Source: Alphaproteobacteria bacterium
GTDB lineage: Bacteria > Pseudomonadota > Alphaproteobacteria > Reyranellales > Reyranellaceae
Assembly: GCA_026126245.1 (NCBI GenBank)
Contig: JAHCJT010000003.1
Coordinates: 1-56,641 of the forward strand
Direction of reading: 5' to 3'
DNA length: 56,641 nucleotides
The notes below the pieces were generated by a model. The model worked only from the letters and a program-made list of their open reading frames with translations. It was not told the origin of the DNA and did no database searches. This document shows positions 39,115 to 53,207 of the stretch, one piece after another (position 1 is the stretch's first letter; every line of letters starts with the position of its first letter). The position numbers and the translations under genes were made by a program.

Positions 39115-40515
39115 ATGACCGACACGGCGGTACGTGACGACGACGGCGATGTCTCGGCCCGTCACGGCGCGTGGGTGCAGCGCCGTCTGTCGGACGTGTC
39201 CGGCCACTTGGCCGCCACCCAACTGGTGTGCCGGCCCGATCGGCTATCCCGCGTCCTGGCGGCGATTCCGGCACCGGAAGGTCGCAGCTTGATCGCCCGC
39301 GGGGGCGGACAAAGCTACGGTGATTCAGCGCTCAACGACGGCGGTTGCATCGTTCTCACCGACCGGCTCGATCGCATGCTGTCGTTCGATTCCGAAACCG
39401 GCCTTCTGGTCGCCGAGGCCGGCGTCACGGTCGGCGATATCCTGCGAACCTTCCTGCCGCGCGGCCATGCCCTCGCCGTCTGTCCCGGGTCCAGCCGCAC
39501 CACGCTCGGTGGCGCCATCGCCGCGGATGTGCATGGCATGAACCACGTGCACGCCGGCGCGTTCGGCGCGCATATTTCCTGGCTCGATCTGGTGACCGCC
39601 CGGGGCGGTCTGCGGCGTATCTCAGCGCTAGACGAACCCGACCTGTTCGACGCCACTGTCGGCGGCATGGGCCTGACCGGAGTCGTCGTCCGCGCCGCCA
39701 TCTGCCTGTCGCCGTTGACGTCGCCGCTTGTCGATGTGGATTGCCAGGCGATGGCGTCTTGCGAATCGCTCCTCGACGCGCTGGTAGCGGCTGCCGAGGC
39801 GCATACGTATGCCTCCGCCTGGATTGACGTCGCCGCAGTTGGACCGAAACAGGGGAGTGGCGTGCTGGAGACGGCGGACCTTGTGCCGCCTCAGGGCCGG
39901 GCAGCGACGTCGGCAGACCGGTGTTCTCGGCGGGAATGGCCCCAACGTGTGATCAGCACGGCGACGGGACGCGCCTTCCGCCGCACGTCTGCCTTCTGGC
40001 GACGGCGCGGTAGGTTGATCGGGCCGCGGGCCTGTCGGTTGCCGCTGGGGCAATACCTCTTCGAAGACGAACATCCGGCTCGATCGCGAGAGGGGCTATG
40101 GCAGCGTAACTGCGTCCGCTTCCAGGTCGTCCTGCCACTCGAGGACGCGGCTGGCGGCATCCGCCGTCTGCTCGACATCGCGCGCCGCGGCGGCGGCGTC
40201 TCAAGTGCCCATCTGCGGACGATGGGGAAGGAAGGTCGTGGCTTGTTGAGCTTTGCGCGCCCGGGCATGAGCCTGACTCTTGACCTTCCGCCGCGCATAG
40301 CCACGCCCGATCTCATGCGGCGCTTGGAGCGGGAGACGCTCGACCGGGGCGGTCGCGCGTTCCTCGCCTGCGACGCATATCTGACCGATCACGGATTTGC
40401 AGCGATGTATCCGCGTCTGCCGGTGCTGCGCGACGTGCTGGCGCGCGTCGATCCGGAGATGCGCCTGCAGTCGGATCTCGCCCGCAGATTGCGGCTGCGC
40501 GACTACATCGTGTAG
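39115..40515 (+). CDS. FAD-linked oxidoreductase, DprE1-like (decaprenylphosphoryl-ribose 2-oxidase type)
   Basis: 466 residues. A vanillyl-alcohol-oxidase-type flavoprotein: FAD-binding LIARGGGQSYGDSALNDGG, EAGVTVGDILR, and GGAIAADVHGMNHVHAGAFG, close to the mycobacterial DprE1 segment (which has HGKNHH; the Lys is Met here). Then ATVGGMGLTGVVVRA. In actinobacteria DprE1 oxidises decaprenylphosphoryl-ribose as the first step to decaprenylphosphoryl-arabinose. An SDR partner follows after 6 bases, as DprE2 does. The prenyl-phosphate phosphoribosyltransferase is not in the window. Specificity is inferred. Confidence 0.78.
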   Translation: MTDTAVRDDDGDVSARHGAWVQRRLSDVSGHLAATQLVCRPDRLSRVLAAIPAPEGRSLIARGGGQSYGDSALNDGGCIVLTDRLDRMLSFDSETGLLVAEAGVTVGDILRTFLPRGHALAVCPGSSRTTLGGAIAADVHGMNHVHAGAFGAHISWLDLVTARGGLRRISALDEPDLFDATVGGMGLTGVVVRAAICLSPLTSPLVDVDCQAMASCESLLDALVAAAEAHTYASAWIDVAAVGPKQGSGVLETADLVPPQGRAATSADRCSRREWPQRVISTATGRAFRRTSAFWRRRGRLIGPRACRLPLGQYLFEDEHPARSREGLWQRNCVRFQVVLPLEDAAGGIRRLLDIARRGGGVSSAHLRTMGKEGRGLLSFARPGMSLTLDLPPRIATPDLMRRLERETLDRGGRAFLACDAYLTDHGFAAMYPRLPVLRDVLARVDPEMRLQSDLARRLRLRDYIV

Positions 40516-40521
40516 ACGGCC

Positions 40522-41265
40522 ATGGCGTCTGTAACCGATACCTGGCTCATTCTCGGCGCATCGTCGGCGCTGGCGCGCGCCTTTGCACGTCGGGTCGCAC
40601 ACGCGGGTGCAAGATTGCTGCTGGCTGGTCGCGACATTGTCGACCTCGATGCTTGCGCCGCTGATCTGCGCACGCGCTTTGACGCCGACGTCGAAACACT
40701 TGTCTTCGACGCCGTCGCGTACGAGACGCATGAGGCGGTCGCGGAGCGGCTCGCGGCAGCCGAACGCCCCAACGTCCTGCTGGCGTTCGCTGTCATGTCG
40801 GACCAGGCGGCCCTCGAGCAGCAACCGTCGACGGCGGCCGCCGTGTTCGATTCAAATCTGGCGGGCGCCGCCACCATCCTGTTGCGGTTGCTGCCAATCC
40901 TCGAAACCAGGCGTGGCGCGCGTGTTGTCGTCGTTGGCTCGGTCGCGGGCGATCGCGGGCGCAAGCGCAACTATGTCTACGGTGCCAGCAAGGCCGGACT
41001 GCATGCCCTGGTCTCCGGCTACCGGGGACGGCTGCACCGCGCCGGCGTGTCAGTGACCCTGGTGAAGGCTGGACCGTTCGACAGCGCAATGACCTTCGGT
41101 CGGACCGATCTGCGCAACGTCGCTGCGGTCGACGCCGTTGCGCGCGATTGCTGGCGTGCGGCGCAGCGCCGACGCAGTGTCGCCTACAGCCCCGCGCTCT
41201 GGCGCTGGATCATGACAGCGGTAAAGGCGATCCCGGAGCCGATATTCAAACGCCTGGATCTCTGA
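40522..41265 (+). CDS. Short-chain dehydrogenase, DprE2-like
   Basis: 247 residues. NAD(P)-binding LILGASSALARAFAR and catalytic Tyr-Lys in YGASKAG identify an SDR; VVVGSVAGDRG supplies the catalytic Ser strand. The C-terminal half contains VKAGPFDSAMTF, then a hydrophobic tail with YSPALWRWIMTAVKAIPEPI, as in DprE2. It would reduce the keto intermediate made by the preceding flavoprotein. Coupling is tight (6-base gap). It converges with the phosphoesterase-like gene. Confidence 0.8.
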   Translation: MASVTDTWLILGASSALARAFARRVAHAGARLLLAGRDIVDLDACAADLRTRFDADVETLVFDAVAYETHEAVAERLAAAERPNVLLAFAVMSDQAALEQQPSTAAAVFDSNLAGAATILLRLLPILETRRGARVVVVGSVAGDRGRKRNYVYGASKAGLHALVSGYRGRLHRAGVSVTLVKAGPFDSAMTFGRTDLRNVAAVDAVARDCWRAAQRRRSVAYSPALWRWIMTAVKAIPEPIFKRLDL

Positions 41266-42276: not shown

Positions 42277-42894
42277 TCAGCCGCCGCGACGCAGGATTTC
42301 CACCGTATCGCCAGGGAACAACGGCGTTTCGGGCTTGCCATCACATTGGCCACCGGGTCGGAAGATAACCGAGCGATCAGGGCTCGCGCGCCGCTCCAAT
42401 CCGCCGGCCAGCGCCGAGGCGCCGCGCACGTCTAGTCCGAACGAGAACGGATATCGACCAGGCAGCTTCACCAAGCCAAGCACGGTGACCGGCCGATAGC
42501 CGATAACCTGAACCGCAATCCGCGGATCGATCAGGATGTTGTTTTTCAGCTTGCTGAAGATTTCCGACTGGACCTCGCCCACGGTGCGATCCGCGGCCAT
42601 GATCTCACCGGCGAGAGCAATGACGATCTTGCCGCCGGCATCGACCTCGGCTTCGCCGCCCAACTCAGGCTGGCCGACAACAGTGACCTTCAGCCTGTCG
42701 CCGACGCCCAGTTTGTAGTCCAGTCCGCCGACCAGCGCCTTGGACGTCGGGCAAGGAATGCCCGTGCTGCTCGTTCCCCCGGTCTCGCACGCCGTCAGCG
42801 CCAGTGCACCGACCAGTGCCAAGGCGGCAGCGGCGGCGGCGGCGCGATTGATCTTGCGGCCAACTGACCGCCCAGAACGGAAAATGCCAATCAT
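42277..42894 (-). CDS. Polysaccharide export outer-membrane lipoprotein (Wza/GumB type)
   Basis: 205 residues. A lipoprotein signal ends ALALTAC, with Cys as the acylation site. A Poly_export domain follows (YKLGVGDRLKVTVVGQPELGG, EAEVDAGGKIVIALAGEI, VGEVQSEIFSKL, DPRIAVQVIGYRPV) and then a short SLBB-like part (VLGLVKLPGRYPF). It is shorter than E. coli Wza (~380) and near GumB (~210), so it probably works with the beta-barrel encoded just upstream to make the outer-membrane exit for a polymer. Last gene of a three-gene operon. Confidence 0.92.
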   Translation of the reverse strand: MIGIFRSGRSVGRKINRAAAAAAALALVGALALTACETGGTSSTGIPCPTSKALVGGLDYKLGVGDRLKVTVVGQPELGGEAEVDAGGKIVIALAGEIMAADRTVGEVQSEIFSKLKNNILIDPRIAVQVIGYRPVTVLGLVKLPGRYPFSFGLDVRGASALAGGLERRASPDRSVIFRPGGQCDGKPETPLFPGDTVEILRRGG

Positions 42895-42935
42895 GCAAAC
42901 CTACCCCAAATATGAACGAATTCTCTCTCTCCAAG

Positions 42936-44255
42936 TCATAGCTGAGCACCGAGCGTAATCATGAAACGGTTGTCGGTGTAGTTGGCGCTGCTCGGTTTGG
43001 CCTCACGACGCGAGAAGTAGTAACGCGGACCGGCATAGAAATGCGTATTGAAGTAGTACTTCGCACCGGCATCAAAGAAGATGTAGTTCTCGCGGCCTCC
43101 GCTTCCACTGTACGTATATCGTGAAACCGCCGCGCCAGCGTCGAGCAACAGCGGATCAATTGGCTCCCATCCGCCGCGCACGCCGATATAAGTCTCGACG
43201 CCATTCGCCAAGGCTCCGGCCGTCGAAACCGTTGCCACTCGGTACTGAGTGAATCCCTGTCGTGCCTCTGCTTCGATCGAAACTGTATCGGTCGGATTCC
43301 AATACAGTCGGCCGAGAAAGGATACGCCGCTTGCCGGTTTGCCAGGACCATCGTAGGTCCGCCGATAATAGCCGACACTACCTTCAACGGTTAGGTCGCG
43401 CGCCACATCGTATGCAACACCGGCACGCACGTCGAAGCCCTGATTGTCAGGCCCCGCCACGCTCGGTTTGTCGTACTTCACCCACTGATATGACGGATCC
43501 ACAAATACCGAGAGTTCCGGCGTAATCTTGTATCCGACCCGCGCAAAAACGTCGTAGACGTTAAAGTCACTGTCGAAGGTAACGCCCTTGACATAGTAAA
43601 TGCGTCTGAACCTCGATCCGACGCGGCCGTAAAACGGGTCTCCGCCGTAGATCAACTGGGTTGTCGCCGAAAGCGCCTGGATAATCTGGAGCGGGTTGCT
43701 GAAACCACCACTGAACAGGCCCGGCGCGCCCGGCGGAATTGGAATTCGCTCAAAAGTGACGTCAGTCGTCCAGGCGAGTTCGTCGTTGATGTCGTATTTT
43801 CCACTGCCTCCGACGGCAAACGCCTCGTAGTCCTGGCTCGTCAACTTGGCATAGCGCGCAATTTCGGCCGAAGCGAAGAAACCAAGTGCATGCTCGCCCC
43901 AGTCGGTCTCCACTGAGAACGAGGGCCGAACCCTGAAAATGAAATCATCCTGCCGGCCACTGCGCGTCCGAAAGACGTTGTCGTCGTATTCGCCGTCGAC
44001 CTCGAGCTTCGGATACACCACGAACCCACCGCCGATCGCCCAGCCATCCGGCTTATCGATATGCGGGCGGCGCAGAATCGATGCGTCGCGTGCGGACTCC
44101 TCGGGTGTGGGTGCGACCGCCGGCCGCTTGGTGACCGGCGTGGGCGGATACTGGGCCGACGCCGGACCACTATCGATGACACCGATCGAACCGAAGGACA
44201 GGGCAATCAGAAACGCGATTGCCCTGCCGGCCATGGGGGTCGATTGAGTTCGCAC
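42936..44255 (-). CDS. Outer-membrane beta-barrel protein (BBP2-type), polymer export cluster
   Basis: 439 residues from a GTG; an ATG at 44234 gives a shorter signal peptide. The signal ends near ASAQ. The mature protein has alternating aromatic strands throughout, such as PKLEVDGEYDDNVFRT, a segment typical of the putative beta-barrel porin 2 family, and ends in a strand with an aromatic residue (FMITLGAQL), as outer-membrane proteins do. BBP2 proteins accompany GumB-type export lipoproteins in exopolysaccharide clusters and are thought to form or guard the exit pore. The lipoprotein gene follows after 41 bases. Confidence 0.87.
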   Translation of the reverse strand: MRTQSTPMAGRAIAFLIALSFGSIGVIDSGPASAQYPPTPVTKRPAVAPTPEESARDASILRRPHIDKPDGWAIGGGFVVYPKLEVDGEYDDNVFRTRSGRQDDFIFRVRPSFSVETDWGEHALGFFASAEIARYAKLTSQDYEAFAVGGSGKYDINDELAWTTDVTFERIPIPPGAPGLFSGGFSNPLQIIQALSATTQLIYGGDPFYGRVGSRFRRIYYVKGVTFDSDFNVYDVFARVGYKITPELSVFVDPSYQWVKYDKPSVAGPDNQGFDVRAGVAYDVARDLTVEGSVGYYRRTYDGPGKPASGVSFLGRLYWNPTDTVSIEAEARQGFTQYRVATVSTAGALANGVETYIGVRGGWEPIDPLLLDAGAAVSRYTYSGSGGRENYIFFDAGAKYYFNTHFYAGPRYYFSRREAKPSSANYTDNRFMITLGAQL

Positions 44256-44285
44256 GTACCCGTCCCGGAAGTTGAAAACAGATGA

Positions 44286-45374
44286 CTAGCTGCGACTCAC
44301 CGGCGCGCACACGCCCTGACACGGCGGATCCGGCGGCCGGCACACGCCACCCGGGCAGTTCCTGCTGGGCGGCTGCTGCTGCGGTAGTTCCGCCAGAGCC
44401 CTGTCAATGCGGGCTTCCTGCTCGAGGCAACCCTTGTTGGATACCGGTCCCATGGATTGTGCGGTGGCGTCAAGTATGAACCCTGACGGCTGACCCACAG
44501 GCTCGATCAGGAGGGCACCAATTTCAGCGCTCTGCGGAAACTGAAGCATCAGCTCCCCGCCGGCGTGATCGATGTCGAAAACGATCGCCGGAGCGCTGCC
44601 GGGCAGCACATTGCTGGGCGAGAACACCTGTTCGGCCGGCCCATTGGCCAGCGCGCCCCGCGGCAACCAGCGGTCAGGGCCGGCGGCGGCGACCTCAATG
44701 GTCCGGCCACCGGCCTGGATCGAGCGGCCGAATGGCGTCGTCAGTGCCTGCGCCAGTGGTCGCTTGCCGCTGACCACGACCACCCGGTACTTGCCGGCGT
44801 CCGCCTGGGTCTTGAAGCTCGAGATACCAATGATTGAGTCGCCCGAGGCCGGATAGGCGTCATTGTAGCGCACGCCGCTTAGGCTGACTCCGGTGATGCG
44901 CGGATCGCCCGGTACAACGGCGCGCATGCCGGGGTAAACGGGCTGCCCCGCCGGCCCGAAGTCAAAGGCCTGCGCACCCTGAGGCACAGTAAAGCGACGC
45001 ACGCAGACCGAATCGATGATGAAGGCGGCGCACACGGAACTCTTGGAGATCACGGCGATCTCGTTGAGCACGTTCGGCGGGCAATTGCGCGACGCCAGGC
45101 ATTTGTCGTTGACCGACTTCAGGAGCTGGATGGCTCGGTCGGTAGTCGCCGGGCGATCCGGGTAGGCCGCCTGCAGAAAGCTGCGGACCCGGCTTCGCCA
45201 ATCGCCATCGTTACGGGCGATCGCATCGGCAAGTTCGTTGGCCTGCGCCAGCAGGGCAGCCGGAGCGACGCCCTTGGGGCCGCTCAGTTGCGGTGGCGCG
45301 GCAATGGCAGACGTGAACGCGCCGACACCGAGGACGATGCCGGCGACAAGGGTAGTCAGGCGCGAGCGGAACAT
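44286..45374 (-). CDS. Secreted protein of unknown function with Cys/Pro-rich tail
   Basis: 362 residues; not recognised. A Sec signal peptide (about 1-26, ending SAIAA) sends it out of the cytoplasm. The AGGAAG ribosome-binding site 8 bases upstream fixes the ATG at 45374. The N-terminal mature part is helical with two Cys (CLASRNC); the middle is a beta-rich region (GDSIIGISSFKT, YRVVVVSGKRPLAQAL); the last 45 residues are Pro/Gln-rich with five Cys in total (CLEQEARID, then NCPGGVCRPPDPPCQGVC). It is the first gene of the operon with the beta-barrel and export lipoprotein, so a role in polymer export or anchoring is plausible. Confidence 0.7.
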   Translation of the reverse strand: MFRSRLTTLVAGIVLGVGAFTSAIAAPPQLSGPKGVAPAALLAQANELADAIARNDGDWRSRVRSFLQAAYPDRPATTDRAIQLLKSVNDKCLASRNCPPNVLNEIAVISKSSVCAAFIIDSVCVRRFTVPQGAQAFDFGPAGQPVYPGMRAVVPGDPRITGVSLSGVRYNDAYPASGDSIIGISSFKTQADAGKYRVVVVSGKRPLAQALTTPFGRSIQAGGRTIEVAAAGPDRWLPRGALANGPAEQVFSPSNVLPGSAPAIVFDIDHAGGELMLQFPQSAEIGALLIEPVGQPSGFILDATAQSMGPVSNKGCLEQEARIDRALAELPQQQPPSRNCPGGVCRPPDPPCQGVCAPVSRS

Positions 45375-45768
45375 GAAAATCACTTCCTGAAAATACGGCT
45401 GGTGGCAGATGTTTAAATCTACCAATTGCTTATAACATTGTTAGGGGTAATTGCGCAGCCCTTTTCGCCCCGCGCGTCATACCGAAAGGGCGATAGTCGG
45501 CACCAACGGCGACCAATCCGACGCTTGGGCGCAGGGCCTTGCGCCCCTGAGCGCTCCGATCGAGATGCGTTAGACCAACCGTTCAGAGCACTTAAGGAAA
45601 CACGGATAAAAGATTGTAATCGAACATAAATTCTGAGACATTCACTCCTGAGAAAGAGACGTCATCGGGTTGATCCCCGCCCCTCCGGCGATGGCCCGGT
45701 CCGCGGGCGCCTGGCGAAATCGCCCACGATCGGCGCTCCCATGACGCGAAAACGGAGCTCCTCGGCGC
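45375..45768. promoter_or_regulatory. Divergent intergenic region between export operon and type I secretion operon
   Basis: 394 bases with no convincing gene; the lower-GC parts are about 45375-45450 and 45590-45660. It must hold promoters for both operons. An inverted repeat GCCCTTT (45458-45464) / AAAGGGC (45485-45491) with a 20-base spacer could be an operator. On the minus strand TTATAAG and TTTAAAC near 45410-45435 are candidate -10 elements, but I find no good -35. Upstream of the ABC gene GGAG sits about 10 bases before the ATG. Confidence 0.4.
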
Positions 45769-48123
45769 ATGGCCTCGGTCGACACTGCGGTGCAGCATCC
45801 CTTCGATCCGCAGGCAGCACGGGCGCCTTGGAAGGTCGGGGCGAGGCCGGCGTCCGCCGCGAACGGATCAATGCGCGAAACTCCTTTGCGCGATGGCGGA
45901 ACTGCCGCTGACCGCACAACGCAGACCGGGGCGGCGCGGGTCGACGCCGAGGCGTCGCGACCTGCCGTCGATTCGCATCTGGCAAGCTTATTGTACCTCG
46001 TTCATCAGCTCGGCCGGCCGGCGTCCGAGGCTGAGCTGCAGACCCTCCTGCCGACGGACGATGGCGGCATCACCGAGGCGGCCTTGGCCACAGCCTGCGC
46101 CCGCCTGGGGCTCGACGCCGTCACAATGGACGTCACAGCCCGTGCGCTCGAGCGCCTCCCGGCACCGTTCGTCCTGATGGGCGGCCCCACTGGCGCCTTT
46201 CATGTCGTTGTCGGACGCGATCGCGATACAGGCGAATTGCAGGTGCTCGACGCGGTCGGTGGCGGCGTTCGCAGCCTGTCGCCGCGCACGGCAGCGGCCT
46301 TGTCCGGTCGCGCCATCGTCTTCAGGAACGCCACCGGCGGCACGCCTCCGGACTGGAAGAGACTGCTGCGAGCGCGCATTCGGAAGGTCATGGCCGAATT
46401 GCTGGCGGCGTCCTTTGCCATCAACGCCCTGGCGCTGGTGACGCCCTTGTTCATGATGGCGGTCTTCAACCGTGCGATCGGCCACGGCGGCATCGAGACG
46501 CTCGCCCGGACCATGACGGTGCTGAGCATCGGCGTGGCCGTCGCTTATGCGTTCGATCTGCTCCTGAGGATCCTGAGGGGCTATGTGTCGAGCCATACCG
46601 GGGCCCGCATTGACACGCTCATGTCGGGTGAGGTCGTGCGCCATCTGGTGCACCTGCCGTACCGGCACTTCGAGCGCACCCCGTCGGGCGTCATCGCTGA
46701 ACGGCTGCGCCAGCTCGATACCCTGCGCGCCTTTTTCACCGGGCAGATGCCGGCCCTGATCATCGATCTGGGGTTCGCCTCGATCTTCCTCGGCGCCATT
46801 TTTGCCATCAACTGGCCGATCGGACTGTTTGTCCTGCTGGCCGCGCCGCTGTTCGCCGGCATATCGCTGCTCGCCCGCGGCGCCCAGAAGCGGCACATCG
46901 ACGAGAGCTTTCACGCCCTGGCGGCAAAGAACTCAGCCCTGAACGAGGTCGTCAACAACGCCGGCACCATCAAGGCGCTCGGACTGGAGCCGGAGATGGA
47001 ACGGCGATGGGGCGCGCGCGTCGCCCAATCGGCGTGGACCGGCTTCCGGGCCAACAACCTGAGCAGCGTAGTGGCATCGCTGACCGGCGTTCTGCAGCTC
47101 TTCTTCTCGCTGGGGGTCGTGCTGCTCGGTGTCTGGGAGTTCGTCGATCAGCGTGTGTCGCTGGGGGGACTGGTTGCCGTCAGCCTGCTATCGACCCGCG
47201 CGATCACGCCCATGCGCCAGGTGACCAGTGCCTGGCATGCAATCCAGTCCGTGCGATCGGCGTTCGCGCGGGTCGACGAAATGATGCGCGCCCCGACCGA
47301 GGCCGAGCCCGGCCGCCTGACGCCCATGCCGCCGCTGGTCGGCGACGTGACGCTCGAGCAGGTCGGCATGCGCCACGAAGACGGCGGCCCGCCTGCGCTG
47401 CAAGACGTCGATTTCCAGATCGAGGCCGGTTCCGTCGTCGGCATTATCGGCCCGTCTGGGTCTGGCAAGACGACGATCGCCAATCTGATCCAGGGCCTCT
47501 ACGGCCCGACATCCGGTCGGGTGCTGATCGACGGCACGGACGTCGCCCACATGTCGCCGGCGCAGCTACGCGGCCAGATCGGTTGCGTGCCGCAAGAGGT
47601 CCAGCTGTTTTCCGGCAGCGTGCGCGAGAACATTGCGATGGGCGCCGCCGACAAGGACCCGGCCCGCGTCGTGGCCGTCGCCAGATTTGTCGGCGCGCAC
47701 CAGTTCATCCAGCGATTGCCTCAGGGCTACGATACCGTGCTGGGCGAGCGGGGTGGCGGCCTGTCGGCCGGCCAGAAACAGCTTCTGTGCATCGCCCGCG
47801 CCCTGATCCGCAATCCACGCATCATCATCCTGGACGAAGCAACCAGCGCGCTTGACCCGGCGAGCGAGGAGCAGATTCTGCGGGCGCTGCGCGCCAATGC
47901 CCGCGGCCGAACGATCATCATGATCACGCACCGGCTGGCGCCGCTGGCGATTGCCGACAAGGTGGCGCTGGTCATCAATGGCCGCATCGAGCGATTCGGT
48001 CCGCCGACCGAAGTGATGGCCTACGCTCGCATTCGCATGGCAGAGGCAAGCCGCGGTCAGTCGCCGAGCCGCCCGACCGTCGTTGGCGGTGTGACCTTCT
48101 CCTGGCCCTTGAGCACAGCATGA
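45769..48123 (+). CDS. Type I secretion ABC transporter (permease-ATPase) with inactive C39-like domain
   Basis: 784 residues. After a ~60-residue unstructured start comes a C39 peptidase-like domain (about 70-180: LASLLYLVHQLGRPASEAEL, then APFVLMGGPTGAFHVVVGRD). The catalytic Cys of true C39 peptidases is absent, as in HlyB, so it may dock substrate without cleavage. Six membrane helices span about 205-490 (LLAASFAINALALVTPLFMM is the first). The ATPase has Walker A GPSGSGKTT near 560, signature LSAGQKQ (in place of LSGGQ) and Walker B IIILDEATSALD. The stop overlaps the adaptor gene (ATGA). The exported protein is not identifiable. Confidence 0.92.
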   Translation: MASVDTAVQHPFDPQAARAPWKVGARPASAANGSMRETPLRDGGTAADRTTQTGAARVDAEASRPAVDSHLASLLYLVHQLGRPASEAELQTLLPTDDGGITEAALATACARLGLDAVTMDVTARALERLPAPFVLMGGPTGAFHVVVGRDRDTGELQVLDAVGGGVRSLSPRTAAALSGRAIVFRNATGGTPPDWKRLLRARIRKVMAELLAASFAINALALVTPLFMMAVFNRAIGHGGIETLARTMTVLSIGVAVAYAFDLLLRILRGYVSSHTGARIDTLMSGEVVRHLVHLPYRHFERTPSGVIAERLRQLDTLRAFFTGQMPALIIDLGFASIFLGAIFAINWPIGLFVLLAAPLFAGISLLARGAQKRHIDESFHALAAKNSALNEVVNNAGTIKALGLEPEMERRWGARVAQSAWTGFRANNLSSVVASLTGVLQLFFSLGVVLLGVWEFVDQRVSLGGLVAVSLLSTRAITPMRQVTSAWHAIQSVRSAFARVDEMMRAPTEAEPGRLTPMPPLVGDVTLEQVGMRHEDGGPPALQDVDFQIEAGSVVGIIGPSGSGKTTIANLIQGLYGPTSGRVLIDGTDVAHMSPAQLRGQIGCVPQEVQLFSGSVRENIAMGAADKDPARVVAVARFVGAHQFIQRLPQGYDTVLGERGGGLSAGQKQLLCIARALIRNPRIIILDEATSALDPASEEQILRALRANARGRTIIMITHRLAPLAIADKVALVINGRIERFGPPTEVMAYARIRMAEASRGQSPSRPTVVGGVTFSWPLSTA

Positions 48124-49586
48124 CTCGTGTTGAGCGCGCCCATCGGCATAACACGCCGTCCATCCCGGATGGGATCGTGGAGCGGCCCGGCGTGCAGGCC
48201 ACGACACAGACGCCACGGTCCCTTCTCCCTGGTGAACCTGTGGCGACGCGGCGGCCTCGGGACAACCAGGCCTTCCTGCGTCTCGTCACCGAGGCGCGGC
48301 TGCCGGGCGTGCGCAACCGCTACGAGGATTTCCTGCCTGAAGCCGAGGTCGTCTCTGGCCGACGGCATTCGCCCTATGCGACATGGCTGATCTACGCCCT
48401 GTCGTCGCTGGTGATCGCCGCGGTGGCGTGGATGCATTTCTCGCGGATCGACAAAGTGATCACGGTGACGGGCGTCGTCCGGCCGACGGGTCACCCCTTG
48501 GCCGTCGATCACGCCGAGGGCGGCCATGTCGCGCGCGTGTTTGCCAAGGACGGCGATCTGGTGGCGGCAGGCCAGCCATTGATCGCCCTCGACGACTCGC
48601 AGGTGCTCGCGGAGATCGCCAAGGTTTCGGCTGCACTGCGGATGCTAACCGCCGAGGTGGTGCGGCTGAAGGCCGAAACCGCCGAGCCGCCCACGGTGCC
48701 GATGTTTCCCCTCGAACTTGGCACCGACGCCGCGGCGGCCCAACTGATTCTGTGGCAAGCCCGTCAGGCCGAGATCGAACGCCAACGCAGCGCGGCCGAC
48801 ACGCTGATCCAAGACGCCCGTGCGCGTGTCGCCACAACAGCGAAATTGGCACCGTTTCTGGGGCGAGAGACGGCGTCGGACGGCGAGCCGACCGACTCGG
48901 CATCTGCCTCACCCCAGGAGTCGCAGACCGAGCTGGAAGCGGCTGAGCGGGCTTTGGCTGCTTCGGTGGCCCGACGTGCCGCCGTCGACCACGAGTGGCG
49001 CGCCGCGGCGCTCCGCCGTTTGGCCGATGCGGACGCCGAGCGCCAGCGGGCCCAGGGCGCCCTTGATCTCCTAGAGGAGCGCCAACGCCGCTTGGTCTTG
49101 CGCGCGCCCGTCAGCGGTATGGTGATCGGTCTGGGTCGCACGCACGCTGGCGCGACCGTCCGGGTCGGGGAACCGGCGGCCATGGTCGTCGCGCCCGACC
49201 AGATGCATCGGGTCGACATCGACGCATGGGTTCCGGTCGAGGCCATCGATGCCGCGGCGGTCGGTCAGGATGTAACCATCCGTGTCCAGCCCCAAGGCCA
49301 CGTGCCGTTCGCGACGCTGAGGGGCAAAATCACCCAGGTCGGCACAGGCGCCGTCGGGCGCGATCCCTCTTCCCGTTCCCCAATGGACCCCTCGTCAAGT
49401 GGCCACATCGCTGTCCGCATCGCCGTCGAGCGAGGCCAGGGTCAGGGAGATCGGTGGAACGGCCAGCTTGTCCCCGGCATGACAGCCAGCATCGAGCTGC
49501 GCGCCGGCGACTATTCGATCCTTGACCTCGTGAGTGGCACTGTCCGAGGGACAATCGGCGGCGGCCGGCTCGCCAGCGGCGGCTGA
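48120..49586 (+). CDS. HlyD-family periplasmic adaptor of type I secretion
   Basis: 488 residues. A cytoplasmic N-terminus of some 85 residues, one membrane segment (about 87-107), then GVVRPTGHPLAVDHAEGGHV (lipoyl-like half), long Ala/Glu-rich helices (about 150-340) forming the periplasmic hairpin, the returning lipoyl half LVLRAPVSGMVIGLG, and beta-barrel LVPGMTASIELRAGDYSIL near the C-terminus. It links the ABC transporter to a TolC-type outer-membrane channel, which is not encoded here. Coupled to the transporter by an ATGA overlap. The N-terminal extension is longer than in HlyD. Confidence 0.92.
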   Translation: MTRVERAHRHNTPSIPDGIVERPGVQATTQTPRSLLPGEPVATRRPRDNQAFLRLVTEARLPGVRNRYEDFLPEAEVVSGRRHSPYATWLIYALSSLVIAAVAWMHFSRIDKVITVTGVVRPTGHPLAVDHAEGGHVARVFAKDGDLVAAGQPLIALDDSQVLAEIAKVSAALRMLTAEVVRLKAETAEPPTVPMFPLELGTDAAAAQLILWQARQAEIERQRSAADTLIQDARARVATTAKLAPFLGRETASDGEPTDSASASPQESQTELEAAERALAASVARRAAVDHEWRAAALRRLADADAERQRAQGALDLLEERQRRLVLRAPVSGMVIGLGRTHAGATVRVGEPAAMVVAPDQMHRVDIDAWVPVEAIDAAAVGQDVTIRVQPQGHVPFATLRGKITQVGTGAVGRDPSSRSPMDPSSSGHIAVRIAVERGQGQGDRWNGQLVPGMTASIELRAGDYSILDLVSGTVRGTIGGGRLASGG

Positions 49587-50034
49587 TCTTCCGCCCTCCC
49601 ACCCCGTGGAGCCGCTCTGGGCGGCGCGTTCACGTTCTGGATCGGCTGCAGGGCCGCGCGCCGGATGCCCCGCCATCCTGCGGATGACCATCCACATCGG
49701 GCCTGCTCAACGGGTGTGACATCGTTCTTGGGTGAGCACTCGATTTATGTTAAAAGAGGTATGCGTCGAATCACCGGTCATGCGCCTGTAATTTCTGGTC
49801 CAAAGCTGTCATTGGAAATTTGCCTTGGTATGCTTTTTTCAACATTGTGGGCCTATACGCTCTTCAGACCACTATATATTGCGGCTTTGCCGTGCCGGTG
49901 ACAGTTATAAACAGGTTCCCATTTGTATGCTGTTAGAGTAGTTTACGATTTATTCTTTAAGCGAGAGTACGTGGCTCAAAGGCTGCGGGTTGATTGTGCG
50001 TCGGTCGCGGCGCCTACGTACTAAGGGATCAATA
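49587..50034 (+). promoter_or_regulatory. 448-base AT-rich gap upstream of the tyrosine autokinase
   Basis: Bases 49720-49980 are clearly lower in GC than anything around them. The region presumably holds the promoter of the autokinase gene; TATATT near 49873 is a -10-like element, without a clear -35. A 46-codon open frame at 49761-49901 has a hydrophobic stretch but the GAGG lies too close to its ATG to be a normal ribosome-binding site. I see no terminator hairpin for the preceding operon. Nothing else is recognisable. Confidence 0.35.
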
Positions 50035-52315
50035 ATGGCGAACGTAAGCCGTTTGCAGACCGGTTATAGCAATCTGCCCGCTGAAACATCGCCGCCATTG
50101 CCTGCACCTCCGGGGGGTGGAGGTGGGGATGAAGGCGGCTCGGGGCTCTCATTTCGTCAGATTCTGGGCACCCTGCGACGCCACAAACTACTGATCGGTG
50201 GCATCGCCCTGATCGGTACGACCATCGCCTGGCTGGTTGCGAACCAGCTGACGCCGGTCTACCAGGCGCAAGCCGACCTGGTCGTCGAACCGCGGTCGAC
50301 CGACGTCATGAAGGCGGGACCCACGGACTATGCCCAGCCGCCACTCGACTACCGCACGATGGAAACGGAGGCGGCCAAGCTGCGGGCCGAGCGCCTGGCG
50401 CGCAAGTCCGTGATCGCGCTGGGGTTGATCACGCACCCGCTCTATAATCCCGATCTCGCGCCGCCGGAACAAAGTCGACTGCGCACCATCTTCCAGCCGG
50501 TGCTGCAGATCCTGCGGCTGAGCGACGCGCCAACGGCGCCGAAGATCTCGGCGGAAGAGATCCAGCGGCGCATCGACGCGATGCCGGCTCGGGCGCGTGA
50601 GCGGCTCATCAACCAGATCGCCGATATGTGGCTGGCGAACCTCACGGTCCAGACCTCGGCGACCTCGGTCATGACGGTGTTCCGGTCGCCCGATCCCGGA
50701 TCTGGCGGCCAATTCGGTCAACCAGTCGATCCGCAGCTACATCGATGAGCAGAAGAAGGAGAAATCCGAGGGCCCGCTCGATCTGATGAAGTTCCTCAGC
50801 GCGCGTATCGATGACGTGCGCTCGGCCGTGGTCGAGGCTGACCGCAAGCTGGCAAAGTTCCGCTCTGAAAACGCCATGTACGATGCGACCGATGCATCGT
50901 CACTGGCCAAGACATTGGCCGACGTCCGCGGCCAGCTGCTGATTGCCGACCAGGTCGCGACGCAGAAGGAACTGGGCGTCAAGCAGGGCGTATCGGCCGA
51001 CGCCGCCGGCATGACGTTGCTGGCCGAGATGGCCGCGGCCGAAAAAGAGTTCCAAGCGATCGCATCGTACGCGGCACCAGGCCATCCGGACTATCAGAAG
51101 GCGGCCAAACGTCTGGCCGCCGTGCGGGCGCGTTTGGACGATGAGCGTCGGCGCAGCGCCAACAACCTGCAGGCCGAGGCCAAGGCGGCGCGCGAAAACG
51201 CCAACAAACTGCAGGCCGAAGTTGCCCGGCTGGAACGCGAGTTGAAGCGGCAGACCGAAGGCTCGGCCCAGCTCCGCGCGTTACAGACCGAGCTCGATAC
51301 CGCCAAGGCCCTGTATTCAACGCTTCTGACGCGCCTGCAGGAAGTGAACGTCCTGGCCAGTGTCGACAAGAAGGGCGACGCCAAGCAGATCAACGAGGCG
51401 GCACCGCCCAGCTTCCCGGTCGCGCCGCGCAGGGACCTGATCGTCCTGATGGCGTTTGTGGCCTCCATGGCGCTGGCCGTCGGCATCGCGGTCATGCTCG
51501 AGTTGATGGACTCGGGTTTCCGCTCGGTGCACCAGCTCGAGCAGCAAACCGGCGTGGCCGCCCTGGGCATGGTGCCCTACCAGTCGGCCGGCCGACTGCG
51601 GCGCAGCAACAAGCCGTGGCTCAACGTCGTCGAGAAGCCCAACTCGGCCTACTCCGAAGCGTTGCGGACGATCCGCACGGGCATTGCGCTCAGCAGTGCC
51701 GACCACCCGCAGCGTACCGTCGCGGTCACGTCCGCGGTGCCGGGCGAGGGCAAGACGACCACGGCTCTGTCGCTGGCGGCCGCTTCGGCCGCGTCGGGCG
51801 CGCGCACGCTGATCATCGACTGCGACATGCGCCAGCCGTCGCTGCACAAGAACATCGGGGTCGAGAACCAGGCCGGACTGGCTGAATTCCTGGCGGGTCA
51901 GCGCGACCTGGAGGATCTGGTTCAGGTCGAGCCCAAGACCGGGCTCTACTATGTGCTGGCGGGCAAGCGACCGCCGTCGCCGACCGACCTGCTGGGTAGC
52001 CTGCGCATGCGCCGGCTGTTGCAGCAGCTGGGCGATGCCTTCGACATGGTGTTGCTCGACACGCCACCGGTGCTGGCCGTCTCCGACGCCCTGCTGCTGG
52101 TGCGGCAGACCGACACCACAATCTACGTGGTGCGATGGGAGAAGACGCGCCGCGACATTGCGATGGCCGGCCTCAAGATGGTCTATGAAGCCGGTGCGCG
52201 TCTCTCGGGCTGCGTGTTGAGCCATGTCGACCTGCGGCGCCACGCGCAGTACGACTACACCGACAGCGGCGTCTTCTACTATCGCGGCTATCGTCGCTAC
52301 TACGGCGACGGTTGA
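50035..52315 (+). pseudogene. Wzc/ExoP-type polysaccharide tyrosine autokinase, interrupted by a frameshift
   Basis: Two open frames (50035-50748, then the frame ending at 52315) are parts of one gene. Removing one G near 50698 (in GATCCCGGATCTGG) joins SPDP to DLAANSVNQSIRSY and gives about 759 residues. AAGGGA precedes the ATG. The N-terminus has a Wzz domain (membrane segment LLIGGIALIGTTIAWLVA, YQAQADLVVEPR), then coiled coil, a second membrane helix (LIVLMAFVASMALAVGIAVM), and a bacterial tyrosine kinase domain: Walker A TSAVPGEGKTTTALS, Walker A' LIIDCDMRQP, Walker B VLLDTPPVL. The tail holds seven tyrosines (QYDYTDSGVFYYRGYRRYY), the autophosphorylation cluster. It controls polymer length and export with the Wza-type lipoprotein. 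Whether the break is real or a sequencing error is unknown. Confidence 0.85.
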
Positions 52316-52334
52316 TCACGACCACCGGTCGGAC

Positions 52335-52352
52335 GGGCGGCCCTGGCCGCCC
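52335..52352 (+). terminator. GC-rich hairpin after the autokinase gene
   Basis: GGGCGGCC (52335-52342), two bases, then GGCCGCCC (52345-52352), flanked by partly complementary CCACC/GGTGG. It starts 20 bases after the stop codon at 52315. There is no T-run, so it may be a weak terminator or an RNA 3'-end hairpin only. Confidence 0.4.
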
Positions 52353-52424
52353 GGTGGACGCTGCGGATTCGAGTCGCAACCCGATTGCCGGCCGATGTAG
52401 GCTCGCGGCGACAAGAAGCCGCCG

Positions 52425-53207
52425 ATGAGACTGTTTTCGCCAACCACCGACATCGAGATTGACGTCGAGCCACGGGAAAAATCCCACCCCGAGCTCGACC
52501 TGCGGCCGGTTGACCCTGACCGGCGCCGACCGGCGCGCCTGTTTGTCGCCGGAGCTGCGGTGGCCGGTGGCTTGTTGTTGCTGAGTCTGGCTGTGCCGCA
52601 TCTTTTCTCGGCCATTGAACTTCTGGATGCCCGCAGCGTCGCCGAACGCGCCCAGCTCGATGATCCCAAGCTGACGAATCCCGAGATCGAGAGCGCTGCC
52701 GCCGCGTTGCTGCATGCCCTCGAATGGCAGGACGACGCCGATCTGGCGGCGCTGCTGGCCGCAACGCGGTTGACCCAGGCGGCGCGCGCCACGACGCCGG
52801 AAGCCGCCGGCCAGCGTCTGAAGCAGGCAATCGAGGCGGCGAAGGCGGCCATTCGCCTGTCGCCCGCCCACCCGACGGCGTGGACGCTGCTGGCAACGTC
52901 GCTGGAGGCCAGCGACCCCCGCAACCCACAGTTCGTGGCAGCGCTGCAGCGTGCCATCGCGGTCGCGCCATACGATGCCCGCTACCTGGCGCAGCGGGTC
53001 GAGATGGCCTGCCGCTACTGGCACCTGATCGATCAGCCCACCCGGCAACTCGTGGCGGCGCAGATCCACATCCTGGCGGGCCGCGACATGCCCGCCCTGG
53101 CGGCACTGGCGAAGCGCAGCTACGGCCTGCTGCCCGTGCGCGAGTCGCTGGCCGGCGACCCGGCGCTACTGGAACGCTTCGACGCGATCTACATCACGCT
53201 GCAGTAG
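52425..53207 (+). CDS. Membrane-anchored TPR-like protein of the polymer locus
   Basis: 260 residues. A charged cytoplasmic N-terminus (about 1-37), a single membrane segment (about 38-60: LFVAGAAVAGGLLLLSLAV), then an all-helical part. Helical pairs such as AIEAAKAAIRLSPAHPTAWTLL and ALQRAIAVAPYDARYLAQR have TPR spacing. The C-terminal domain should lie in the periplasm. TPR proteins in exopolysaccharide clusters often scaffold the export complex; its position after the autokinase suggests this. Not a recognised named gene. Confidence 0.72.
   Translation: MRLFSPTTDIEIDVEPREKSHPELDLRPVDPDRRRPARLFVAGAAVAGGLLLLSLAVPHLFSAIELLDARSVAERAQLDDPKLTNPEIESAAAALLHALEWQDDADLAALLAATRLTQAARATTPEAAGQRLKQAIEAAKAAIRLSPAHPTAWTLLATSLEASDPRNPQFVAALQRAIAVAPYDARYLAQRVEMACRYWHLIDQPTRQLVAAQIHILAGRDMPALAALAKRSYGLLPVRESLAGDPALLERFDAIYITLQ

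Follow-up and report, generated by a model that had tools for sequence, protein, structure and literature searches.

What kind of exporter is encoded where genes for polysaccharide export and genes for type I protein secretion lie side by side? The question is raised by positions 42277-53207 of the stretch of DNA analysed here (the window: 56,641 nucleotides, the whole of contig G000:C223, JAHCJT010000003.1), which comes from an alphaproteobacterium of the Reyranellaceae represented by a metagenome-assembled genome (MAG) of 4.98 Mb in 496 contigs, 87.66% complete. An earlier note on this DNA had pointed to the mixture, remarked that no sugar-assembly genes accompany it, and proposed either that these lie elsewhere or that the export parts serve some protein-linked or otherwise unusual cargo, perhaps as a distinct system. 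The locus is here considered likely to be an envelope-spanning export module for a Wzx/Wzy-type exopolysaccharide (EPS) that uses a composite OPX/beta-barrel translocon and is linked to a type I pair. An exotic exporter is unlikely; the machine is probably of a largely known type, and its twist is the secretion half. The genes named in the note are all present, as judged from open reading frames (ORFs) and Pfam, some of them in altered form: the Wzc-like kinase is split over two frames in the window, the cysteine-rich tail of the secreted protein is confined to the window's genus within the aligned set, and the type I ABC transporter is followed by an adaptor with 47 profile positions missing from its helical part.

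Parts of a probable polysaccharide export module

Two outer-membrane components are encoded next to each other on the minus strand. The first (42277..42894) is a short Wza-like OPX lipoprotein of 205 residues with Poly_export and SLBB domains (Pfam PF02563, E 4.7e-18, 65.6 bits against a cut-off of 28). Its N-terminus is lipobox-like by inspection, and by the Pfam boundaries about 24 residues remain C-terminal to the SLBB match. Relatives with solved structure include Wza (2j58) and a 186-residue export protein (9n9a), and identity to the OPX proteins of orthologous modules is 50-76%. The second (42936..44255) is a BBP2_2 outer-membrane beta-barrel (PF10082, E 3e-52), the proposed pore. It has no sequence relative among solved structures; its model (pLDDT 79.4) contains 18 strands of at least 12 residues.

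Composite OPX/beta-barrel translocons have been described as an OPX of at most 280 residues coupled to a barrel of 16-18 strands (PMC9601211), and the same class is treated in PMC9603273. The 205-residue OPX and the adjoining modelled barrel agree with this class in size and in lying within five genes of each other, and within five genes of the OPX there is also a co-polymerase gene with Wzz, GNVR and AAA_31 domains (49990-52315, in two frames). Its N-terminal Wzz piece (49990..50748, plus strand; Pfam Wzz E 1.1e-8) probably starts at the ATG at 50035, and the C-terminal piece, in another frame (50786..52315, plus), carries the GNVR and AAA_31 kinase domains recognised by Pfam and a tyrosine-rich tail. 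A VpsP-like TPR-type membrane protein follows (52425..53207, plus; NCBIfam NF038257, E 1.7e-4). Its TPR matches are all under the Pfam cut-offs, and NF038257 is matched by five of nine aligned VpsP-like orthologs, with a best E of 2.1e-9. The gap between the adaptor and Wzc genes (49740-49980) is AT-rich, with 42% G+C against 66.5% in the window, which suggests a separate promoter for the Wzc-TPR pair.

Upstream of the barrel, also on the minus strand, lies the gene of a secreted protein, here called SecP (44286..45425), with a signal peptide recognised by inspection and a start that is probably an internal ATG near 45374. SecP has no Pfam or NCBIfam match. Its model (pLDDT 79.8) comprises helices at 55-131 and a malectin/CBM35-like beta-sandwich at about 137-318. 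When this sandwich was compared with solved structures by VIA-align, where Z values below 8 are common, the best matches were an accessory domain of a GH2 beta-glucuronidase (Z 11.1) and YxiM (10.6), followed by plant malectin-like ectodomains (9.2-9.7), malectin (9.2) and CBM35 modules (about 7 to 8). Domains of insecticidal crystal proteins were matched as well (6.7-7.0), and the fold was also compared by Foldseek. Such likeness of a predicted fold is by itself no proof of sugar binding; on its model, SecP is an undescribed family with a glycan-binding-type fold. Among 19 members aligned, one bears an additional FecR domain. Although overall identity is low, 21 of 29 distinct tails share the short C-terminal motif S[PR][SNA], a pattern picked after the tails had been viewed. 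In the genomes of a related genus, g3, two SecP paralogs flank BBP2 and OPX (L037 4072-8527; L039 18387-22787, crossing into L040). At L101-L110, large ORFs, mostly of 675-1289 residues, carry a weak SecP-like stretch; eight of the larger ORFs at L100-L110 were scanned and gave no informative Pfam family, save FecR in L100 and weak matches.

The neighbourhood in other genomes

Three genomes of the same genus were available: Vineibacter terrae CC-CFT640 (L112), Reyranella sp. CPCC 100927 (L111) and Rhodospirillaceae bacterium SYSU D60007 (L134). Vineibacter is placed in Alphaproteobacteria by NCBI, and together with the window's MAG these genomes are the four genus members counted below. SecP was matched in 12 of 76 genomes at order level and, by a profile search, in 31 of 385 at class level, with 32 places listed. 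The surroundings were compared for 30 of these places (all except those in G000 and G073) over stretches of at most 20 kb, some of which stop at contig ends.

SecP, barrel and OPX occur together at 16 of the 30 places, in 10 families, and all 16 of these core loci are among the 20 better-scoring SecP places. They also hold Wzc (13), a TPR/VpsP-like gene (12), a Wzy-type gene (12), an initiating transferase (11), the ABC-HlyD pair (10, in six of the 10 families), PqqD (9), an HprK-like gene (7) and RTX (none); the profiles for Wzy, transferase, HprK and PqqD were built from two to three of the same or related loci, with identity backed by Pfam, and the seed loci L083, L086 and L092 are thus positive by construction in these counts. 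Near the 10 weak SecP places an OPX match was found three times and a weak Wzc match six times, and the SecP-like stretch lies mostly within a larger ORF.

The association was also seen when the ABC was taken as the starting point. An alignment-based scan for it found 114 relatives, of which 80 were kept; an ABC of this subfamily is present in 68, with HlyD adjoining in 23. Where at least 6 kb of upstream sequence was available, SecP and BBP2 accompany 15 of 16 adaptor-linked ABC loci, the exception being Geminicoccus (L173), and SecP with a barrel is found at none of the 23 loci that lack an adaptor and extend far enough to either side. The ABC-side loci are phylogenetically clumped and partly the same as those of the class sample, so that the two sets of numbers are not independent. 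Co-conservation of the two halves, which the earlier note had named as a check on its proposal, is thus found from both sides.

A fuller layout is exemplified by Tistlia consotensis (L163) and Rhodospirillaceae ECT2AJA-110-B (L160), where transferase-Wzy and TPR-Wzc-OPX-BBP2-SecP are followed by a divergent ABC-HlyD pair and then by PqqD-HprK. Unlike this layout, the window, its genus and genus g3 have the Wzc-TPR pair after HlyD. Kordiimonadales IMCC3096 (L156) and Minwuia (L157, L159, L168) have SecP-BBP2-OPX and ABC-HlyD, with no Wzc or TPR in the compared stretch. PqqD-like and HprK-like genes were observed near ABC-HlyD in relatives at L047 1262-6906 (genome G001), L083 14619-15914 and L086 3056-3928.

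As for sugar assembly, the earlier note was right about the interval itself, among whose main ORFs no glycosyltransferase, Wzx, Wzy, TolC or RTX protein was recognised, but about 1 kb outside it lies a DprE1/DprE2-like pair (39115..41265, plus). The pair scores 267.9 bits with NF053785 and 155.2 bits with NF053786, under the curated cut-offs of 500 and 250, and matches solved structures of DprE1 (E 2.2e-58) and DprE2 (E 1.6e-21). All three genus relatives carry it near the module, whereas none was seen in the stretches from g3 and G001. A lipid-linked arabinose donor may be its product, which might tie the pair to the exporter. The suggestion that sugar genes lie elsewhere is supported: Wzy-type and transferase genes stand beside the module in other lineages, and in the window's family assembly genes do not adjoin it. 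In each of the three genus relatives, Bac_transf and Wzy_C were matched on other contigs or at a distance from the module, and RTX was matched elsewhere as well. The MAG contains 13 Glycos_transf_1 matches on other contigs and two OPX genes. Four stretches compared from genomes of genera g1 and g3 share a conserved transferase/GT4/epimerase/ManC cluster and a GT2/carbamoyltransferase pair; the transferase of this orphan cluster did not group with good support with module-linked transferases, and its GT2 has no match in the window's MAG.

The type I pair and its shortened adaptor

The ABC exporter (45769..48123, plus) has its best matches among type I secretion families (TIGR03375, 543 bits) and begins with a degenerate C39-like domain. 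A catalytic C39 peptidase was rejected by inspection, the catalytic cysteine not being in place and the sole cysteine of the first 195 residues lying at 110. In the window the Walker A, signature, Walker B and H motifs are intact, as are the ATPase motifs of all four genus members; the ABC of L134 has lost the C39-like domain.

The HlyD-family adaptor (48120..49586, plus) has a shortened helical region and matches a module-adaptor profile in two stretches, 26-208 and 256-459. The 34 adaptors from outside the genus, of which 28 are distinct because six loci are present twice, supplied this profile of 467 positions; as would be expected of the sequences it was trained on, each of the 34 matches it without a break. 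The four genus adaptors all match in two stretches and are internally deleted. The profile positions absent are 209-255 in the window, 152-289 in L134, 89-355 in L111 and 89-352 in L112, and in the last two little is left beyond the membrane anchor and the C-terminal domain. The complete lipoyl/helical hairpin region by which an adaptor of type I secretion was judged is accordingly not present in the window. The helical region of E. coli HlyD bears an RLT motif that binds TolC (PMC3391258), and an adaptor from genus g3 aligns with HlyD (8dck) along its length. The window adaptor retains the region aligned to this motif, so that its defect is partial; a placement of the gap on the published motif was dropped, since the motif-matching region is present in alignments. 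TolC-family channels are encoded in the MAG, with six OEP matches, none of them linked to the locus. An RTX protein lies near the module in G001. RTX-repeat matches number 69, 60 and 38 in the three genus relatives, and the zero of the MAG reflects incompleteness or real absence. In two relatives, RTX matches share small contigs with Wzy_C and Bac_transf (L235-L239; G075:C47, G006:C78); these contigs may hold EPS clusters that include a type I substrate.

Within one family the adjoining adaptor is thus full (genus g3), internally deleted (the window's genus) or absent beside the ABC (Reyranella). The Reyranella ABC ortholog is about 60% identical, with no HlyD, OPX or SecP adjoining, and at L150 it comes after a gene read by eye as metK. 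In a tree of 78 ABCs, a single clade (support 1.0) unites the window's genus, g3 and the 41 solo sequences, the window's genus being also a clade of its own (0.987). The ATPase motifs are kept in 40 of the 41 solo ABCs, one row being unaligned there. A second, metK-linked ABC paralog, which would account for Reyranella, was not seen at E 1e-100; at this threshold the match in every g1, g3 and G001 genome is the module ABC, G074 adds a 35% paralog and G053 gives none. L179, with a 69% ABC match, was considered as a fifth genus member and rejected as Reyranella-like, being 76% identical to L150 and having the same neighbours.

The rates of change differ between the halves. Non-synonymous divergence (dN) of the window from L112, L111 and L134 was divided by that from L114 of genus g3; the values, obtained by simple counting, are rough because synonymous divergence (dS) is near or above 1 in many pairs. 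In the secretion half the ratio is 1.00-1.28 for HlyD and 0.88-0.94 for the ABC; in the polysaccharide half it is 0.70-0.82 for BBP2, 0.43-0.62 for OPX and 0.37-0.40 for TPR, with 0.27-0.38 for SecP and 0.27-0.46 for the C-terminal piece of Wzc. Within the genus, dN/dS of the ABC is 0.20-0.30, which indicates that it is still constrained. On these sequence comparisons, the polysaccharide half is conserved in the window's genus, and the protein-secretion half appears to be decaying or being re-tooled.

Known systems and rival readings

The VPS genes of Vibrio run in the order vpsL-M-N-O-P. Relatives of the window hold a comparable set (transferase, barrel, OPX, Wzc and VpsP-like protein), to which the module adds SecP, the type I pair and PqqD/HprK-like genes, and the VpsP match of the window is under its cut-off. 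EpsY/EpsX of Myxococcus xanthus and VpsN/VpsM of Vibrio cholerae have the same OPX of at most 280 residues, 18-strand barrel and Wzc-type co-polymerase (PMC9601211); compared with them, the window has in addition the SecP gene and the linked ABC-HlyD pair, and assembly genes are not adjoining in its family. The OPX, barrel and kinase families are also related to those of XrtA/PEP-CTERM EPS export, but membership of that system was rejected on scores of 54.1 of 180 bits for TIGR03027, 57 of 90.85 for TIGR03016 and 113.8 of 230.65 for TIGR03018.

Type I pairs near EPS genes have precedents. ExpD1/ExpD2-ExpE1 is reportedly a type I pair linked to EPS secretion. Rhizobial type I secretion has been tied to EPS processing or secretion (PMC3233446), and PrsDE to EPS glycanases and Rap proteins (PMC1403797, PMC9298526). 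In the window, by comparison with these, no substrate gene was recognised, and the adaptor of its genus is internally deleted. Sphingan clusters likewise combine EPS genes with a type I ABC and HlyD near export genes, a likeness of described gene content, again with the difference of the window's deleted adaptor; the function of AtrB/AtrD in these clusters is called unknown in PMC8921679, and their overexpression is reported to raise yield (PMC9197254). A literature search returned no title joining these parts among the matches listed, subscription papers being mostly beyond its coverage.

From the gene identities, neighbourhoods, predicted folds, adaptor deletions and ABC motifs observed, we infer the transport steps, the polymer, the ligand of SecP and the cargo of the ABC as follows. 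The inner-membrane Wzc would control polymerisation and hand the polymer to the short OPX lipoprotein, and the 18-strand barrel would serve as the pore, since the OPX is presumably without an outer-membrane helix. SecP, exported by the Sec route, would hold glycan near the translocon by its malectin-like domain. In relatives with an intact adaptor, ABC-HlyD and a TolC encoded elsewhere could export a protein for binding, trimming or anchoring the polymer. With some or all of the adaptor's helical region gone in the window's genus, the pair would there be decaying or working without the usual TolC contact, the polysaccharide genes staying conserved.

Several observations weigh against this reading. 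The trio of SecP, barrel and OPX is missing at four of the 20 better SecP places and at all 10 weak ones, and ABC+HlyD is not in the compared stretch at six of the 16 core loci. Some domain assignments score low: the SLBB match of the OPX reaches 22.3 bits (cut-off 27), NF038257 21.3 (125), TIGR03375 stays under its cut-off of 693, and the adaptor gives 158.8 bits with TIGR01843 (208.65). The Wzc gene changes frame near 50.69-50.70 kb, and aligned relatives have a single frame, module Wzc proteins measuring 751-892 residues; as the C-terminal piece is 80-87% identical to three genus orthologs with low dN, the split is likely an assembly error or a recent mutation. Bac_transf and Wzy_C have no match in the 87.66% complete MAG, an absence that may be due to incompleteness, given that all three genus relatives have these genes. 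The orphan sugar cluster was rejected as dedicated to the exporter, its GT2 matching 63 of 76 order genomes, including most Reyranella without the module. HemolysinCabind (RTX) matches are absent from the MAG and present in nine of 10 genomes searched, and an RTX substrate adjoins the module only in G001 and, by a crude motif count, at none of the 16 core loci. Type I substrates are not all RTX proteins. Lastly, BesA is an adaptor without a hairpin domain that is part of a named pump (PMC8277102), so that deletion in the adaptor need not equal loss of function.

It is possible, if doubtful, that ABC-HlyD survives in this genus as a relic that came with the module, has ceased to function and is heading for loss. 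The adaptor deletions of three different extents in all four genus members, the fast divergence of ABC and HlyD, the C39-like domain missing from the L134 ABC and the adaptor missing beside the Reyranella ABC would fit such a fate; however, the low dN/dS of the ABC, its intact motifs throughout the genus and adaptor remnants that are still in frame do not, and the motifs kept in nearly all solo ABCs indicate that the ABC itself is retained. The solo orthologs of Reyranella speak for a rather improbable flippase-like reading, by which the adaptor-free ABC moves a lipid-linked sugar, or a lipid, over the inner membrane for the same polymer. The DprE1/DprE2-like pair, a possible maker of lipid-linked sugar, adjoins the locus in this genus, as such a role would have it, but by family match the ABC is closest to type I protein exporters that have a C39-like domain, and no sugar genes were recognised beside the Reyranella ABC. 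An unlikely and speculative course would be that the type I ABC of Reyranellaceae was uncoupled stepwise from TolC and, its motifs intact, persists as an inner-membrane exporter loading the periplasm; in Vineibacter it may then feed its cargo to SecP, OPX and barrel next to it, with protein and polysaccharide sharing one pore.

The earlier note's own proposal, by which the parts make up a distinct system and a cargo that is protein-linked or unusual passes through the ABC transporter, draws on the conserved adjacency of the halves and on an interval empty of sugar genes. It has become very improbable, because the parts fit the published polysaccharide translocon and route, with an accessory type I pair that has precedents; sugar-assembly genes adjoin the module in most other lineages, over a third of the core loci have no ABC+HlyD nearby, and the halves differ in fate, the adaptor being deleted in the window's genus with the rest kept and the Reyranella ABC ortholog occurring without the polysaccharide half. 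That two unrelated loci adjoin by chance is scarcely credible. The opposite transcription directions, a 343-base gap and the Reyranella ABC without the module speak for it, but not the recurrence of ABC+HlyD in core loci of six families nor SecP+BBP2 at all but one of the adaptor-linked ABC loci with enough upstream sequence.

As a probable EPS export module with a linked type I pair, the locus provides a defined gene set to test: a conserved alphaproteobacterial module that ties type I secretion genes to one kind of translocon and to the SecP family. A family whose adaptors range from full to shortened to absent constitutes a natural experiment on a secretion ABC lacking its usual TolC contact.

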